The translations under genes were made by a program, and so were the position numbers. The notes beneath the pieces were generated by a model. That model saw only the letters and a list, made by a program, of their open reading frames with translations. It made no database searches and had not been told where the DNA came from. Positions 3,488 through 23,363 of a stretch of DNA of 23,936 nt are shown here, one piece after another. The first letter of the stretch is position 1. Every line of letters starts with the position of its first letter. This DNA comes from a virus: IMG/VR virus record IMGVR_UViG_3300027793_000278, positions 1 to 23,936 of that record. One strand, given 5' to 3'.

Positions 3488-6151
3488 TCAGCTCGCCAGT
3501 TGCCGCGGGGGAACGACGCCGCTCGCGAAGGGGATTTCGTTGTCGGGCGCACCGAGCGCGATAAACGCGTAACGCTCTTGCGTCGCCTGCACGACGGTTG
3601 CGTCGTCGTATTCAAGGTTGCGCGTGCCCGTCGGGATGGTGCCGACCGTAAGCGTCGCGCGCACCGTCCGCGTCGACACGGTCACGCTCGTGACGGTGAG
3701 CTCGGCGCTGGCTGGCGTCGCATTGTCGTACGTCGCGATGCGTACGAGGTCGCCGCTCTGCCACGCGCTGGTCGCTGCGTACCCAGCAGGCTGCGACGAG
3801 TCGAGGACGATATCGTACGTGCTGCCGCTGACGAGCGTGACGCTCGAGATGCGCGACGATGGGGCATAGCCCGCGACGCGGACATACGTCGACAGCAGCG
3901 TCAGCTCCACAACGGCATCGAGCGGCTTGACCTTGCGCCCGATGACAACGCCGCTTGCCGCGACGATGCCACGGCCACCGCCATCAACGTCGGGCAGCTG
4001 CGCGATTGTGACGCTGACCTGCGAGCCGATGACCGCAGCGATAGCATCGAGCTTGCACGCGACCGTAATCGTCGCATACGCGCCGCCGAGCACGCCGAGC
4101 CACGTTTGCGCCATCGCCAGCACTTCGGAATACGGGATATCCGCGTCACCGGCCCACGTCGAGCGCGGCTCGATCTTCATCATTGTCGGCAGTGGATTGC
4201 GTGAGAGCGCCGCCGCGTCGCGTACCACAAACGTCCTGCCGACGTGCTTGCTCGTCAACGGATCGAAGCCGGTCTTGAGCTGGATGGTGTTGACGAGGCC
4301 GTACGCGTTAGGCTCCCAGCCCGGCATCTGCGCGCCCGAAAGGTTGTTGCTGGCGTCGATGCTGTAGCTGGTAGCTTCAGTCGCCGCACCTGCGCGAAAC
4401 TCGCGGAACGCCAGCCGCCCGTCAGTGGTGATGTACGGAACCAAGCCGTAGAGCTTGCACTCGTCCTCGATCATCTTCGCGAGGCTGACGTCTGACGCGC
4501 CCGCGTATGTGCGCGCGCGCAGCCAATCGCGGCCCAGCGACACGGCGTCGACCGTTGTCGTGATCGCGCTCGTGTCGATGTGCTCCGCGGTCACAAGCGG
4601 CATACGGCCCAAAGGCGCGTAGGTTGGCGAGTCCGTGGTTAGCGCGATCAAAAAATCCGCGAACGTCCCTTCGGCTGCGTACGTGCGCGAACTCGTGACC
4701 GTCGGCACCGACGACGCGGTGTAGTAGCGATCGAGCGCCGTCGGCATCGGGCCGGGGATGCGCCGCACACGCAGCGTCGCGCGCCTCGTCGTCGCGTCCC
4801 ACGAGAGCACGTCGTACTGACGCGTGAGTGCGTCCTTGCCGTCGAACGCGGGCCACTCAAGCGAGACGCTGTCGCCGGTCGCAAGCGTGATGCTGCCGCC
4901 GATGTAAATGGTCTGCGTGCTGATGGCGGCGCTGAGGTAGCCGACAAAGCCACGCGGCACGGTGCCTGCGCCGTCTACAGGCGCGAACGCATACGGCTGG
5001 TAGGACTGGTTGTTGCCGACGGTGAAGACGCGCACGCCGTCGCTTTGCCGCGTCATCGGCAATCCAGCCGTGTAGACTGGGTCGACGTTTGCCGTCGATT
5101 GATTCAACGTCTCGACGTTGCACCAGCGGTGCGACGAGTTCGGTGTGCTGTAAAGGAATCGCCACGAGCCAGCCGGTGTCGGTGTCGCGATAAGCGAAGG
5201 GCGCGCGCCGCTCGTCTGGTTAAGCGCGTTGCTTCCCCAGCCTGACGACGCCGTGCGAATCAACGCGTTGAGCGCTTCGCAGAACTCCTCCTGCGTCTCG
5301 TAATAGCCCGCGAGGTCAGCGCCACCGACGGTCGCCGTGTCGCTGACCGACGCGTCGTAATCCGCGCTCGCGAGGATGCTGATCTGAAACTGCGGCGCGG
5401 TCTGCGCGTTGTAGTTGATGCCGCGCAGCGTCGAGGGCTCCGCGAGGTCGGCGTTCAACGACTGGTTGAGCACGCTCGCGATGCTGTCGAGCTGCACCTC
5501 CCAGACGGTCAGATCGCGGAGCTTCGGCTGCGCTGCGACGATGCCACGCCAGACCAGCGTGCCCGTACCCGTCTCGCCGTCGCCGTACGCGTAAAGGTAC
5601 GCGATGCTGCCTTCGACGGTCGGCCGTCCGTTGGCGAGGCCGCTCTCCTCAAAGGTGACTTCGGGACGCGTCAGGCCCAGCGTCGTGTCGACCGTATGCG
5701 CGGTGCTAATGGTGTCGCGATAATTGCGCGTCACTGTCGGCGCGGCAGTTCCACCGCCCGACGTGATCTTCATGCACTCGTTGCCGAGGAACATGATATC
5801 GCCGTTCGCAGTGTTCGTGCTCGTCAGCGGGATCGATACAGCCGACGACGACACCGACGACGACAAGTAATTGATGCGCGTCGGCTGCCGCGAGAACGAA
5901 TCGCCAGTCCGCGACGAGCCGTCATCAACGATGCGCGCAGTGAACCCGCTCGCACGCAGCTTGACGCTTGCCGGGTCCAGCGACTCGCCCCACTGAATGC
6001 TGCGCGCCTCGAGGCCACCGATGCGCGTGCGGTCCTCCGTGCCTGCGCCGATGAGCGCCGACGACGACACGAACTCGAGCGGGTGACCCGCGATGACGAG
6101 ACGATACGCGATAGCGCCCGAGCCGCGCGAGACGACGTCGGACCAGCTCAC
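3488..6151 (-). CDS. Putative tail hub/baseplate protein, 887 aa
   Basis: This is the largest gene in the window. The start is GTG 6151, which overlaps the upstream stop codon as GTGA and has GAGG 8 nt upstream. The protein is beta-rich throughout with no membrane segment. The N-terminus (about 20-75) has a tail-hub-like domain with GHPLEF and EARSIQWGES. The central region (about 500-700) contains SLAKMIEDECKLYGLVPY and GRLAFREF, typical of tail hub domains built from a phage-specific split beta-barrel. The C-terminus is Thr/Ser/Val-rich and ends with EIPFASGVVPPRQLAS. By position, directly after the tape measure and one small gene, it corresponds to the tail-associated hub that closes the tube and carries the tip proteins. 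The family assignment is by architecture and position, not by an unmistakable motif. Confidence 0.6.
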   Translation of the reverse strand: MSWSDVVSRGSGAIAYRLVIAGHPLEFVSSSALIGAGTEDRTRIGGLEARSIQWGESLDPASVKLRASGFTARIVDDGSSRTGDSFSRQPTRINYLSSSVSSSAVSIPLTSTNTANGDIMFLGNECMKITSGGGTAAPTVTRNYRDTISTAHTVDTTLGLTRPEVTFEESGLANGRPTVEGSIAYLYAYGDGETGTGTLVWRGIVAAQPKLRDLTVWEVQLDSIASVLNQSLNADLAEPSTLRGINYNAQTAPQFQISILASADYDASVSDTATVGGADLAGYYETQEEFCEALNALIRTASSGWGSNALNQTSGARPSLIATPTPAGSWRFLYSTPNSSHRWCNVETLNQSTANVDPVYTAGLPMTRQSDGVRVFTVGNNQSYQPYAFAPVDGAGTVPRGFVGYLSAAISTQTIYIGGSITLATGDSVSLEWPAFDGKDALTRQYDVLSWDATTRRATLRVRRIPGPMPTALDRYYTASSVPTVTSSRTYAAEGTFADFLIALTTDSPTYAPLGRMPLVTAEHIDTSAITTTVDAVSLGRDWLRARTYAGASDVSLAKMIEDECKLYGLVPYITTDGRLAFREFRAGAATEATSYSIDASNNLSGAQMPGWEPNAYGLVNTIQLKTGFDPLTSKHVGRTFVVRDAAALSRNPLPTMMKIEPRSTWAGDADIPYSEVLAMAQTWLGVLGGAYATITVACKLDAIAAVIGSQVSVTIAQLPDVDGGGRGIVAASGVVIGRKVKPLDAVVELTLLSTYVRVAGYAPSSRISSVTLVSGSTYDIVLDSSQPAGYAATSAWQSGDLVRIATYDNATPASAELTVTSVTVSTRTVRATLTVGTIPTGTRNLEYDDATVVQATQERYAFIALGAPDNEIPFASGVVPPRQLAS

Positions 6152-9610: not shown

Positions 9611-10870
9611 TCAGAACACGTGGATGCGGAACGCCGAGCGCTGCGCGTCGTTGGACGGCGAGCTGATGGCCTCGTCGTTGCGACCGGCCCAGCTGACGAG
9701 GAAGCCGTAGAGGTCATTCGCGGGCGTGCGCGGCGGCACCACCGACAGCTGAATCGTCGGCGCGCTCAGCAGCACGATTCCAGCGGTCGTCATGCCGACT
9801 TGCTGGAAGAGGCTCAGGTCTGTGCGGTTCGTGTCGGCCGTGATCCAGTTTGTGGCCGCGTCGTCGTAGACCTGCACTTGCCCGGTGATGGCGCGACCGC
9901 GCGCGCGCTTCCAGCCGATGATGCCCGAGTCACCGGGGCCCTCTGGCGACGTCACGGGGAGGTTCGCCATCCCCGGCGTCCACGTCGAGGACGAGTGCGA
10001 CACGAGGTTGCGCGTCTGGCTCGTCGCGAACGAGCCCGTGCCAAGAATGAGCTCGCTCGTCATGTGCGCGATAGGCGAGAAGTTTGCGATCGTCGCAGCG
10101 CCAAGCGACGTCACCGACGTGCGCAGCCACGACGCGCCGGTCAGCTGCGTCGAGAGCTTCGCGATCTGGCCCTGCGTGATGTCGACCGCGAGCGTGCCCT
10201 GCATCCCGAGGCCTGCGAACTCGTCGTCGGCCTCCTGCCCCTCGATCAGCACTTGCAGCGTCGACAGAAAGCCCGCGGTGTTGTTCGTGAGGCTGAAGCT
10301 GGTCGCCCAGATAACCGGCGCATTCTGCGGCGGCGCAGCCGAGTGCGCGACCTTCGGCACCAGCGTCGTCGCGGTGCATGACAGGATTTCGCGCGCTTCG
10401 TATTTGCCGTTGATCAGCACGGCATACGCGCCACCGGGCGAACCCAGCGACGTGCCGTGCGGCGTCTGCACCACGACGCTCGTGGTCGTGGAGCCGACAC
10501 CGACGAGCGTGGCCGCGCCCTGCGGCGTGCCCTGCGTCTTGACGCCCATCAGTGTCGTCAACAGACGGTCGAGCGCCCACGACGTCGGCCACGCGAGGTT
10601 GCCCGTATTCGGGGTGCCCGTGCCCGCGAGATACGTTGTCAGCGCGAGGGTGCTGCTCTTCTTCGCGAGCACCATCTTCGAGTTCGTGTAGCTGTGCAGG
10701 AACTGCTGTTGAAGCTCGGGCTCGAGATGGTCGGTAAGCGGGACGAAGGTGCCGCTATTCTCAACCACCGGCAGGTCCACGAAGTTCGCGAGCGTGCCCG
10801 TCTCGTTGGTGGCGAATGCCGCCTCGACTGCGATTCGCGTACGCCCGAGGGCTGAAACTTGAACGGTCAT
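9611..10870 (-). CDS. Putative major tail (tube) protein, 419 aa
   Basis: ATG 10870 has AAGGAG about 9 nt upstream. The protein starts MTVQVSALGRTRIAVEA and is beta-rich and Thr/Ala/Val-rich. It has GTFVPLTDHLEPELQQQ at about 40-56, an Ig-like or tube-type insertion in the middle (TSVVVQTPHGTSLGSPGG), and a C-terminal YGFLVSWAGRNDEAI. The N-terminal 'FVDLPVVENSG-TFVPLTDHLEPE' style is common in siphovirus major tail proteins, which start with a strand and then a long loop. The gene lies between the terminator-position protein and the chaperone-position pair, the expected slot. No contractile sheath gene is seen next to it. A sheath identity is less likely because no second tube gene follows. 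Confidence 0.65.
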   Translation of the reverse strand: MTVQVSALGRTRIAVEAAFATNETGTLANFVDLPVVENSGTFVPLTDHLEPELQQQFLHSYTNSKMVLAKKSSTLALTTYLAGTGTPNTGNLAWPTSWALDRLLTTLMGVKTQGTPQGAATLVGVGSTTTSVVVQTPHGTSLGSPGGAYAVLINGKYEAREILSCTATTLVPKVAHSAAPPQNAPVIWATSFSLTNNTAGFLSTLQVLIEGQEADDEFAGLGMQGTLAVDITQGQIAKLSTQLTGASWLRTSVTSLGAATIANFSPIAHMTSELILGTGSFATSQTRNLVSHSSSTWTPGMANLPVTSPEGPGDSGIIGWKRARGRAITGQVQVYDDAATNWITADTNRTDLSLFQQVGMTTAGIVLLSAPTIQLSVVPPRTPANDLYGFLVSWAGRNDEAISSPSNDAQRSAFRIHVF

Positions 10871-17369: not shown

Positions 17370-18176
17370 TTACCTCACAAACGACGACGCGCCGAAGCCG
17401 GGCGTCATTGCGAATCCCGCTGGGATGCTGGTGATGACCTGCAAGCCCTCGTCGCGGAGTTCCTCTTCCGACAGCGTCGTGATGACGCAGCGGCACTGGA
17501 AGCCTCCGGGCGGCGAGATATTGGCGAAGCTGCTGTCGTCAGCGCGCCACACTTTGCGATTCATGGGCGCGTGCTCAGCGCGAACGCGATTGTCCTGCGC
17601 TGTCAGCCACTGCCGATAAGGCCTCGCGTCGAGTACGTCGGGATCGTTCATCTGCGTCCAGCGTCCCGCGCCGTAGGCCGTGGCGACATTGGTGCGGTAG
17701 ACGTTCTCAAGGTAGCTGGCGTCCTGCGGTGCGATGCCGAGCGTAATGGTCTGGTCTTCCATCGCGCGTCTGAAATCGCGCAACGTGTTGCCCTCTTCGA
17801 GCGTGCGTTGCAGCTCCTCGACGGCGCGGCGCGAGATAACGTCAAGCTGCTCGTCGGTGGCAAGCGCAGCGCGGCGACGGTACGCGCGCAGCACGAACTC
17901 CAGGATATCGGGGTCACCGCCACGCTCGCGCCAGAAGGCCACCGCTTCCGCGAATGGCATCTTGAGAAATGCGGGCCGCAAGTCGACGGCGAGTTGCCGC
18001 TGCGCGCCCTGCGGCTCGAGCTCCACGAGGCGCACGAACATCTGGCCCGCCAAGTCGCTCTTGACGCTGGCCTCGTAGATCAGCCGCTCCAGTTCAGGCG
18101 TGCCCTTGAACGCCTCGACGGCCTTCGCGACAGCATCCGCGCCACCAGCCGACGCGATGGCGATGGCCTCGCGCAC
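17370..18176 (-). CDS. Head morphogenesis protein, Mu gpF / SPP1 gp7-like
   Basis: The minimal standalone frame is given, from GTG 18176 (268 aa). That start has no ribosome site, and nor does the ATG at 17960 (MPFAEAVAF), where typical gpF proteins begin. The frame is open and protein-like up to 18383, before any start codon, so it is probably a -1 extension of the portal (see 18332-18359). Family features are MPFAEAVAFWRERGG (73-87), a helix with TLEEGNTLRDFRRAM (125-139), YRTNVATAYGAGRW (160-173), and PPGGFQCRCVITTL (222-235) with the Cys-x-Cys pair of this family. The first 72 residues look like the C-terminal domain of DUF935 portals. These proteins sit in few copies at the portal inside the head, and SPP1 gp7 binds the portal. 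Confidence 0.8.
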   Translation of the reverse strand: MREAIAIASAGGADAVAKAVEAFKGTPELERLIYEASVKSDLAGQMFVRLVELEPQGAQRQLAVDLRPAFLKMPFAEAVAFWRERGGDPDILEFVLRAYRRRAALATDEQLDVISRRAVEELQRTLEEGNTLRDFRRAMEDQTITLGIAPQDASYLENVYRTNVATAYGAGRWTQMNDPDVLDARPYRQWLTAQDNRVRAEHAPMNRKVWRADDSSFANISPPGGFQCRCVITTLSEEELRDEGLQVITSIPAGFAMTPGFGASSFVR

Positions 18177-18238
18177 CGGCGTAAACGCGACGACGCCTTC
18201 TAGGGTCGTCTCCGCGGCTACGACGTACGGTCGCCCGA

Positions 18239-19756
18239 TTACTGCCTGTACGCGCGCCTTGTCCGCGGGGTCGCTGAGAGCGAGGACGTCTGCGAAGTCA
18301 CCGACGTCATCGACAGCGCTGGCATCCCATGCGCCGAGCCCGGCGACGTCGAGAAAGGGCGCTCCGCGGACGCACCTCCGAGCGTGTCAGCAGGCGTCAC
18401 AGCCTCAATCGATGGCAAGCCCGTCTCGACTGGCGGCGCGCCCTCAAAGGGCAGCGGCGAGCCGGGAGGCGCGGGCAACAGCTGGATCTTTGCGATGTTC
18501 TCGCCGCCGTCCTCGACGCTCCACGCAGGCAGGCCCAGCGAAGCGCGAATCTCGTTGACCTTGACGCTGCCGGTGTCGATCGCGTCGCGCGTGATCGGCA
18601 GGCTGTCATCAAACAGCGTCTCGATGACGGGCAGCGGGATATCGGCGCGGCGCAAATTGTAGTATGCGAGCCACCTGACCACGTCGCGCGTGATGCTGCC
18701 CCACATCAGCGTCGAGTCTAGCTTGCTGTTCTCGAGGCGCACGCCGTCGCGCGTCTCCGTGCTCGAGCGCGAGCCGTTTGCGCCGCTGAGGTAGAGGTCG
18801 GGACTGACGCCGAGCGCGAGGAAAAGCTCCTCATTCAGCGACGCGCGAAGCTCTTTCCAGACGCCCGTCGAGCCTGCGCCCGCGGGGTCGATGATCTTGA
18901 TATCCGACGTGCCTGACGTGACGCCCACTGAGTCGGCCGTGAGCTGCTGAAGGTCATCAAGAATGCGCTGCCGCTGCGCGCTATCCGACGACGCGGCCAT
19001 CTGCGCGAGCACGAGCGGGTTGCCGAAACGCTCAGCGCCGATGAGCCAGAATGTCCACACGTTGCGCTTGAAGAGCCAATAAAAGACCGCGGCAAGGAAG
19101 TCGCCTTGATCCATCGGCCGTCCGGGGTCCGTCCACGGCACGTGCACAAGAAACTTCGCGGGGTAATTGACCGTGTTGTACCACTGGTAATCGAAGTCCC
19201 TGACCTCGAGCGACCAGTCCTGCGCATACCGCAGATTGCGCGTCTGCACCGGCACCGGCTGCGGCATCCACGCGCCGCCACGACGCGACCACACCAGTTC
19301 GTGACAGCTGATGCCCATGCCGATGGCGTCGAGCACCCTCATCAAGAACGTCTCGCGCGCCTCGAGGCTGGTCAGCCACTCCTTGGTCAACTGCACCAAC
19401 TCTTCGGCCGCGCCACGCATCTCAGGCGCGACGTCGTCGGCCATGCGCACGGCGAACCCACGGCCAGCCACCGACGAGCGGCGCGTGCTGTACGCGCGGC
19501 GCACGACGGGGTCACGGCGCATTTGAGTCGCCATGTCGGCCCAGTATTCGTAATTGCCGAAGTCAAGCTCACGCAGCGCCGTCGAGATACGCCCCGGCGA
19601 CACCGGCTGTAGCGCGCGCCCGCTGATGGCCGACAGCGACTGCGGCCTGATGACGCGGCCCATCTCTGGGATACGCGTGACCGGCCCCATCGGCTCGACG
19701 GGCGCAGCTGCAGCGACGGTGGCCGCGGGCTGCGTGCGTGGCTTGCGAGACGGCAT
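18239..19756 (-). CDS. Portal protein, DUF935 (Mu gp29-like), 505 aa in zero frame
   Basis: ATG 19756 lies 2 nt after the terminase stop codon with GGGG about 8 nt upstream. Family features are RISTALRELDFGNYEYWADMA followed by RRDPVVRRAYSTRRSSVAG (near 57-97), CHELVW (about 151), a hydrophobic FYWLFKRNVWTFWLIGAERFG portion, and a VKVNEIRASLGLPAW segment (near 400) typical of the end of the DUF935 core. Twelve copies would form the channel through which DNA is packaged. After codon 468 the zero frame gives 37 residues of Ser/Thr-rich, arginine-ended sequence unlike DUF935 C-termini. The expected C-terminal domain lies in the -1 frame. A slippery site at 18359-18353 would join portal residues 1-468 to 327 further residues, giving a 795-residue fusion with gpF. 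Confidence 0.85.
   Translation of the reverse strand: MPSRKPRTQPAATVAAAAPVEPMGPVTRIPEMGRVIRPQSLSAISGRALQPVSPGRISTALRELDFGNYEYWADMATQMRRDPVVRRAYSTRRSSVAGRGFAVRMADDVAPEMRGAAEELVQLTKEWLTSLEARETFLMRVLDAIGMGISCHELVWSRRGGAWMPQPVPVQTRNLRYAQDWSLEVRDFDYQWYNTVNYPAKFLVHVPWTDPGRPMDQGDFLAAVFYWLFKRNVWTFWLIGAERFGNPLVLAQMAASSDSAQRQRILDDLQQLTADSVGVTSGTSDIKIIDPAGAGSTGVWKELRASLNEELFLALGVSPDLYLSGANGSRSSTETRDGVRLENSKLDSTLMWGSITRDVVRWLAYYNLRRADIPLPVIETLFDDSLPITRDAIDTGSVKVNEIRASLGLPAWSVEDGGENIAKIQLLPAPPGSPLPFEGAPPVETGLPSIEAVTPADTLGGASAERPFSTSPGSAHGMPALSMTSVTSQTSSLSATPRTRRAYRQ
18332..18359 (-). promoter_or_regulatory. Candidate programmed -1 frameshift signal joining portal and gpF
   Basis: The minus strand has C CCT TTC at 18359-18353, with CCT and TTC as portal codons 467-468. 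Slipping back one base gives CCC and TTT, so both tRNAs re-pair at the first two positions. A 7-nt spacer follows, then CGCCG-GGCT-CGGCG (18345-18332), a perfect 5-bp GC hairpin. The -1 frame has a stop codon just upstream (TGA, about 25 nt before) and then stays open through gpF to 17370. The switch must therefore fall between that stop codon and the portal stop codon at 18239. A missing C in the assembly would create the same picture. Confidence 0.6.
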
Positions 19757-21876: not shown

Positions 21877-22908
21877 TTACTCGCCCCTCTTGCGCGGCTT
21901 CGGTGGACGCCTGCCCGACGCAAGGTGCTCGGCCATCCACGCCTGCAATTCCGACTTCACTGCGACGACGCCCGCGAACGTCTTGTAGACCGGGAGCGAT
22001 TTCTCGTCGCTCAGATACCGCACCGTGCGCTCGCTGCACCCGCACGTCGTCGCGATTTCCTTCCAGCCTTGCAGATCCCACGGTGTTGCTCGCGTCGCAG
22101 CCATAGCCGTCAACCTCCTGTCGAGCGGGACCAGCCCGCGCGCGCTCATCGCCCGATATAGCTCAAGCAGCCCCTCGCGTCGCATCGTGATCACGTGCCC
22201 CACTGGCACCTCGACGCCGAACGCCTGCGACGCGTACGCCGCAATCTCCGACGCAAGCGGCTCCGTGTACGGGTCAACGTCCTCGTCGCCCTTACGCGGC
22301 CTGCCACGCACGGCGATGCGCGTCTTAGGCCGTTGCTGCCGAACGCCCTCGCCGTGACGCGGCTGCGGATGCTGCATCGGTAGCCGCGAGCCCATCACGC
22401 CGAGCACCGACCACACGACGACCGCCCGCGCCTGCGCTGCCGTCAGCCGCTCCTCGACGGGATACGTCGTCAGCGTCCAGCCGTCCGCGAGGCACAGCGC
22501 CCACAGCCGCGAGACGGGCGCGATTCGCTCGACGGCCCGCTGCGCTGCGTCGCCCTGCGATGCCCCGCTGCCGCCCCACGTCTGCGCCTCAAACCGCGCA
22601 GGGTCGCTGGTCGACCGCAAGGGCGCACCGTCGATGCTGGCGGCGTCTAGGGCCCGTAGCGCGCCAAGGACGCCATTGAACGGCGGGCGGCTGCTCTCGC
22701 CGCGGTTCTCGCGCGCGATGATGGCGAGCGCGACGCGTGTGGCCTCGTGCTTGCGGCGTGCCCGCTCGCGCATCATCGCCGGGGTCAGCGTCTCGACGGG
22801 CGCGGCGTCGCGGTACGGCTGCGCATCGAGCGCGTCCACCAGCGCGACCTCCGAGACGTGGTCCTCGAGCAGCTGCCGCACGTCGACGCTGAGCGCGCTG
22901 CGCTTCAC
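21877..22908 (-). CDS. DNA-binding protein with AT-hook-like motif and C-terminal helix-turn-helix, 343 aa
   Basis: The start is GTG 22908, which overlaps the RusA stop codon as GTGA with GAGG 4 nt upstream. The first half is helix-rich (about 1-175) without a recognised domain. RGRPRKG at 201-207 matches the AT-hook core. The C-terminal domain (about 278-327, LQGWKEIATTCGCSERTVRYL, then LPVYKTFAGVVAVKSELQAWM) is a MerR/excisionase-like winged helix-turn-helix of the 'WKEIA...RTV...LPV...KSEL' type. A basic tail follows (PPKPRKRG). The gene sits between a Holliday-junction resolvase and the terminase genes, so it could regulate the late operon or take part in DNA packaging or replication. The precise function is not recognised. 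Confidence 0.7.
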   Translation of the reverse strand: MKRSALSVDVRQLLEDHVSEVALVDALDAQPYRDAAPVETLTPAMMRERARRKHEATRVALAIIARENRGESSRPPFNGVLGALRALDAASIDGAPLRSTSDPARFEAQTWGGSGASQGDAAQRAVERIAPVSRLWALCLADGWTLTTYPVEERLTAAQARAVVVWSVLGVMGSRLPMQHPQPRHGEGVRQQRPKTRIAVRGRPRKGDEDVDPYTEPLASEIAAYASQAFGVEVPVGHVITMRREGLLELYRAMSARGLVPLDRRLTAMAATRATPWDLQGWKEIATTCGCSERTVRYLSDEKSLPVYKTFAGVVAVKSELQAWMAEHLASGRRPPKPRKRGE

Positions 22909-23363
22909 GACGCCTCGCCGGTAGCTGCGGACTTTTGCGCGCGAGGTCTGGACGTTACGCGCGCAGGTCTGGACCTTTGCGGCTTCGCGACGACGATGCG
23001 CTCGAGCTCCACGACGCGCACCTCGACGCGGGGCCGCTCGCGGTCGACGTGCGTCGCGACGAGCAGCGTCGTGATCTGCGAGTCATCGAGGTACAGCACG
23101 CCGTTGAGCGCGTCGAGCAGCGTCTTCGCGATGTTGTCGAGGTCGCGTCGCCGCTCGTCGGGAAGGTACGCTTCGACGTCGACACGGTAGCGCGACGCCT
23201 TCGACGGCAACCACGGCCCGCGTGGTCGCGCGGCGAGCGCGTGATAGCGCACTGTCGCTTGATACGCGCGCTGCTTCGCTGGCGTGAAGCGCCTCGCGCC
23301 CACCGACGCTGCGCGCTGCCACGGCACGACCGGCCCCGGCACGGTGAACGACACGTCCATCAT
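22905..23363 (-). CDS. rusA: RusA-family Holliday junction resolvase, 152 aa
   Basis: The start ATG 23363 overlaps the upstream stop codon as ATGA. A second ATG follows directly. The N-terminus SFTVPGPVVPWQRA matches the RusA family opening. The catalytic region RRRDLDNIAKTLLDALNG (71-88) and YLDDSQI (91-97) supply the acidic metal ligands (Asp74, Asp76, and Asp93 or Asp94) and the conserved Lys80. The last 25 residues are a basic low-complexity tail (SRPARVTSRPRAQKSA) beyond the usual core of about 120. In phages the enzyme resolves branched DNA before packaging, which fits its place upstream of the terminase genes. Confidence 0.92.
   Translation of the reverse strand: MMDVSFTVPGPVVPWQRAASVGARRFTPAKQRAYQATVRYHALAARPRGPWLPSKASRYRVDVEAYLPDERRRDLDNIAKTLLDALNGVLYLDDSQITTLLVATHVDRERPRVEVRVVELERIVVAKPQRSRPARVTSRPRAQKSAATGEAS

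Follow-up and report, generated by a model that had tools for sequence, protein, structure and literature searches.

A probable programmed -1 frameshift between the portal gene and gpF in a group of Mu-like phages

The portal and gpF frames and what they encode

The stretch of DNA analysed here (the window, 23,936 nucleotides) carries on its minus strand a portal gene followed by gpF (Table 1), and the genes next to them encode terminase subunits along with a protease and a major head protein, both Mu-like. The zero-frame portal ORF (19756-18239, 505 aa) has a Portal_Mu domain, with Pfam PF06074 matching residues 74-379 (E 4e-48), and it matches the solved portals of JBD30 (8rka) and Mu (9khx); its core is that of an ordinary DUF935 / Portal_Mu member. 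Upstream of the terminase genes lies a RusA-like Holliday junction resolvase gene (22905-23363, minus strand). Two long ORFs of the late region, 3488-6151 and 9611-10870 on the minus strand, have no Pfam or PHROG match and probably encode tail or baseplate proteins.

The gpF frame is open from 18386 to 17370, lies -1 relative to the portal, and overlaps the portal ORF. A first-pass annotation of the window had placed its opening just after a TGA at about 18384; the frame does open after a TGA, but that codon is at 18389-18387, a few bases away. Because this TGA closes the -1 frame, any shift into it must happen downstream. The heptamer C CCT TTC is present in phase with the portal at 18359-18353, as the annotation had it, and the zero-frame tail that follows the Pro-Phe of this site is, also as described, Ser/Thr-rich and 37 residues long.

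Table 1. Features of the portal/gpF locus in the window
Feature	Positions	Strand	Remarks
Portal (DUF935 / Portal_Mu): core, linker and 37-residue tail without clear constraint	18239..19756	-	PF06074
TGA shutting the -1 frame on the upstream side	18387..18389	-	
Internal Shine-Dalgarno-like GGAGGT, proposed stimulator	18374..18379	-	14 nt upstream of slip site
Slippery heptamer C_CCU_UUC	18353..18359	-	in phase in 70/70 loci
-1 product past the slip site: putative portal C-terminal domain plus gpF	17370..18359	-	329 residues
Overlap read in both frames	18242..18352	-	codon-phase and pN/pS analysis
5-bp hairpin of the first-pass annotation, CGCCG-GGCT-CGGCG	18332..18345	-	not conserved
Possible downstream hairpin	18310..18337	-	15 nt past heptamer; suggestive only
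Helical domain, putatively the C-terminal domain of ordinary DUF935 portals	17994..18299	-	residues ~21-122 after slip
First canonical start (GTG) of the -1 frame	18174..18176	-	no SD; not common to homologues
gpF / minor head protein	17370..17969	-	Phage_Mu_F domain 17481-17819

The -1 frame has no ATG, GTG or TTG before the GTG at 18176, and this GTG has no Shine-Dalgarno (SD) sequence (duplex energy +0.7 kcal/mol), both of which had been read correctly from the window. Homologues have no start codon in common ahead of codon 106, and the earliest starts are without an SD. From the portal stop to the window's first GTG the -1 frame has a pN/pS of 0.12, with variation at its third codon positions, and in the distal part of the overlap it is more constrained than the zero frame (0.52 versus 1.48). 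The zero-frame tail, with a pN/pS of 0.69 and then 1.48, is under no clear constraint. The purifying selection on the -1 frame argues that it is translated ahead of any start.

The product of the -1 frame appears to have two parts. The distal part is gpF (PF04233, E 1e-16), whose MuF domain lies a short way past the portal; in hhalign, stand-alone gpF proteins from other Mu-like phages line up with the -1 product starting at residue 131 past the slip (E 2.6e-37). The stretch ahead of gpF, about 120 residues, matches the C-terminal domain of ordinary DUF935 portals with an hhalign E of 3e-4 and a score of 27.8, where the best of 60 column-shuffled decoys reached 14.2, while the hhalign probability for this match is only 40%. 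AlphaFold2 models the shifted product with a pLDDT of 83.6 and a pTM of 0.85, and the helical domain with a pLDDT of 86-94 across most of its length. This C-terminal helical domain is absent from the portal's own frame and found only in the -1 frame. In the related phage RcapMu, the corresponding -1 stretch aligns with the C-terminal end of the portal from Meiothermus phage MMP7 (37%, E 1e-4), which is direct evidence that the RcapMu stretch is portal. The first-pass reading of the -1 frame as a DUF935-like C-terminal domain and then gpF is upheld by these alignments, and the domain of the window's own family may tentatively be taken as a portal C-terminus, in part by way of RcapMu. Foldseek comparison of the -1 product with the PDB gave no match, and with viral models it gave head morphogenesis and minor capsid proteins and nothing finer; a PDB sequence search with gpF gave no meaningful match. 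Since gpF proper starts 131 residues past the slip and the part before it matches portal C-termini, it is the portal gene itself that appears to be split; the zero-frame product would then be a portal core, and the shifted product a complete portal plus gpF.

The slip site and its candidate stimulators

Searches of IMG/VR returned about 50-55 related contigs from many metagenomes, some possibly with several loci. In each of the 70 retrieved loci with both parts, gpF lies in the -1 frame, the heptamer CCCTTTC is in phase, and the two frames are open as far as the slip and onwards from it, although the homologues have common ancestry and the locus counts are not independent events. The layout recurs in L117-L119, which retain the heptamer CCCTTTC; identity to the window is 39-49% for their portals and 57-62% for their gpF. 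Among more distant relatives, L264 (portal 30%, gpF 35% identical), L267 and L268 have CCCTTTA and L269 has CCCTTTC, all with the -1 layout and with portals 24-30% identical. Variation is confined to the last base of the heptamer, as a C_CCU_UUN site permits. Comparison with related phages had been proposed beforehand as a check, and it found the heptamer and the two-frame layout conserved and a single continuous portal-gpF frame in no homologue of the window group. Relatives of gpF or portal were not found in sequenced bacterial genomes, and plasmid matches were to ordinary gpF only, none spanning 80% of the query. The portal linker just before the slip has in-frame insertions of about 100 residues, or divergent stretches, in L023, L033, L067, L069, L070, L071 and L072, with the frame relation preserved. 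L259, with a portal 50% identical, has a GIY-YIG-endonuclease-like ORF directly after the portal (L259:3136-3654), and gpF was not detected ahead of its protease gene.

The site has the form X_XXY_YYZ, in phase and inside the overlap of the zero and -1 ORFs, and both frames read Pro-Phe across it. CCCTTTM occurs only one to four times per relative genome of 35-56 kb; both strands of seven such genomes (324,515 bases in total) have 23 copies, seven of which are the slip sites themselves. At this frequency, chance alone would put about 0.001 in-phase copies in an overlap of such length. In 11 of 12 deep representatives the portal ORF has no in-phase XXX(A/T)3 heptamer other than the slip site; L269 has one extra. 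High-level frameshifting on C_CC.U_UU.C has been reported in E. coli (PMC4066793).

The first-pass annotation had proposed a 5-bp GC hairpin as the stimulator. This hairpin is present in the window, 7 nt past the heptamer, but it is not conserved among homologues: in 29 distinct homologues 70% of pair cells form, with zero compensatory change, and it was rejected as a stimulator. Overlooked in that annotation was an element upstream, GGRGG(T), able to bind the anti-Shine-Dalgarno sequence and conserved in the alignment 9-15 nt before the heptamer. In nine of the 12 deep representatives, nowhere in the portal gene is anti-SD pairing as strong as just before the slip; in the exceptions, equally strong windows make up 0.7% (L069), 2.5% (L267) and 8.3% (L119) of the gene, and the element is weak in L119. 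The anti-SD and tRNA assumptions here are those of E. coli and may not be those of the host. In the window no ATG, GTG or TTG lies at initiation distance from GGAGGT, which makes it unlike an initiation signal, and the conserved SD-like element is a better candidate stimulator than the 5-bp hairpin. A second hairpin farther downstream (18337-18310) forms in 97.7% of pair cells and has one pair with a compensatory change, but its spacing is long for a stimulator. Folding energies and z-scores downstream of the slip are mostly unremarkable, and neither these nor the hairpin pairing analysis identified a downstream structure that is clearly conserved or unusually stable.

Split and separate portal genes in other phages

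The same split is seen in several isolates. In RcapMu and RcWaterboi the portal is short (458 aa) and finishes on an A8-A9 run with an in-phase A_AAA_AAA, and the -1 frame runs past the portal stop through the portal C-terminal domain and then gpF; the annotated start of gpF is a GTG without an SD, 95 nt later. RR1-B (A9) and EBPR siphovirus 4 (A9; JF412299.1, L283) are split alike, the portal/gpF pair of the latter being annotated as hypothetical proteins. All four thus resemble the window group in having a portal that stops before the C-terminal domain, and differ from it in having the slip run at the very end of the portal; RcapMu and RcWaterboi are also without the SD-like element. The A-run of the RcapMu type appears to be another slip site, independent of the heptamer. 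In GenBank, the RcapMu record describes the portal as "shorter than related mu-like phages" and notes only a "possible +1 frameshift" permitting readthrough. At L278:942 (RcapMu35) the GenBank record flags a second "potential -1 frameshift", in a small gene before the portal.

A contrast set of 18 phages or contigs with separate genes has portals of about 473-560 aa and an ATG-started gpF, and in none of them is there an in-phase heptamer in the portal/gpF overlap. Mu, DMS3, D3112 and Mushu (portal gp29, then gpF/gp30) have the homologous domains in the same order, but in them the C-terminal domain is part of the portal and gpF is started separately. In Microbacterium phages of clusters EA and EB, portal and MuF form one chain, as in the proposed fusion, and are joined in frame (PMC7302621), which puts MuF on every subunit, whereas in the window group only subunits from shifted ribosomes would carry gpF.

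The arrangement resembles -1 frameshifting of the dnaX and IS911 type, in which an in-phase X_XXY_YYZ heptamer lies in the overlap of two ORFs, an SD-like stimulator lies shortly upstream, and the -1 product extends the protein. It differs in being in a phage portal gene, in using C_CCU_UUM, and in that a conserved downstream structure is not demonstrated. Short and long forms sharing one N-terminus, with a conserved recoding site, are also known from the lambda G/GT tail chaperone, the major head protein of phage A2, and SPP1 gp17.1/gp17.1*; here, however, the recoded gene would be that of the portal, which would gain its own C-terminal domain along with gpF. The openly available literature that was searched contained no paper on frameshifting between portal and gpF/MuF. 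The first-pass suggestion that the arrangement is undescribed agrees with that search, but must be tempered by the RcapMu GenBank record, which already notes the short portal and a possible frameshift.

Frameshifting, its alternatives and the portal ring

The best explanation is a programmed -1 ribosomal frameshift at C_CCU_UUC that splits the portal gene and yields a portal-gpF fusion, to which a probability of about 0.9 is given. This fusion, first proposed from the window alone, has passed the comparative tests, and it is supported by the conserved layout, the slip site, the SD-like element, -1 coding before any usable start, and the identity of the domains. In one sequence, a single missing base would give such a layout; as an account of this locus, a sequencing or assembly error or a broken gene has a negligible chance, since the layout is alike in the related contigs and in deeply diverged lineages with both frames open everywhere, and the homologues rule such an error out. 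Nor is it probable that gpF is made alone, without fusion, by internal initiation at GTG 18176 or at a non-AUG codon, coupled to portal translation. Most Mu-like phages do keep gpF as a gene of its own that overlaps the portal or directly adjoins it, and the GTG at 18176 is available, but such genes in other phages begin at an ATG, in most cases one with good SD pairing, whereas here the start codons described above are neither shared among homologues nor preceded by an SD. An independent gpF start was rejected on those grounds; it would also have to contend with purifying selection on the -1 frame upstream of any start, and would leave the conserved heptamer and SD-like element unexplained. 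Overall, this alternative is considered very unlikely.

Highly improbable, too, is transcriptional slippage, in which a mixed mRNA pool would supply both products and the ribosome would not shift. It is plausible for the A8-A9 runs of RcapMu, RR1-B and EBPR siphovirus 4, and slippage of this kind is possible in the A-run phages. Polymerases do not usually slip on runs as short as the C3-C4 and T3 of the window family, however, and both the tRNA phase and the conserved SD-like element point to the ribosome.

Under programmed frameshifting, most ribosomes would stay in the zero frame and make a portal core ending soon after the slip site. Some would pause with the internal SD (GGAGGT) paired to 16S rRNA and slip on C_CCU_UUC, the Pro and Phe tRNAs re-pairing as CCC UUU so that reading goes on in the -1 frame, and these would make a complete portal, with its C-terminal domain, continuous with gpF. 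Core and fused subunits may then co-assemble in one dodecamer, in which case the shift rate would set the number of gpF and C-terminal domains that enter the head; the simplest reading is a mixed dodecamer with core subunits in the majority and an extended minority proportional to the shift rate. Slippage, its rate and its stoichiometric role are inferred, the frameshift itself with strong support from comparison. The suggestion of one or two fused subunits per 12-mer is plausible by analogy with SPP1 gp7, a low-copy, portal-bound protein (PMC5576092, PMC6316719) found in one or two copies (PMC5576092). Portal gp29 lacks its last 124 residues in Mu virions, presumably through cleavage by protease I (PMC11915804), which implies that a core-only portal is a working subunit.

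A different view accepts the shift and contests its stoichiometric role: the shift may be very efficient, so that the fusion serves as the principal or sole functional portal, leaving the zero-frame product as a by-product. Every ordinary DUF935 portal examined has the C-terminal domain and the zero-frame tail is without clear constraint, both of which suit such a view. Set against this are the usable core-only subunit of Mu, the scarcity of SPP1 gp7, and the retention of the slip site in at least six lineages, which suggests that two products are wanted; a very efficient shift is accordingly judged unlikely. The fuller proposal for the mixed ring is that the shift rate, rather than a separate gene or a protease, fixes the dodecamer, giving a few of the twelve subunits a C-terminal domain and covalent gpF, that this replaces the apparent proteolytic removal in Mu, and that Mu-like phages evolved it two or more times, using different slip sites. 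For this proposal, the case for and the case against are about equally balanced.

Among phage head and tail genes, recoding had been described for those of tail chaperones, tail tubes and major capsid proteins, and by the literature searched the portal would be a new case. Annotation pipelines record such loci as a truncated portal and a gpF with the wrong start, and the cultured relatives RcapMu and RcWaterboi make a portal-gpF frameshift testable. The arrangement offers a direct mechanism for a mixed portal ring, bears on the absence of the C-terminal end of Mu-like portals from virions, and could explain how the number of a scarce head protein is fixed, a copy control that is otherwise unexplained.
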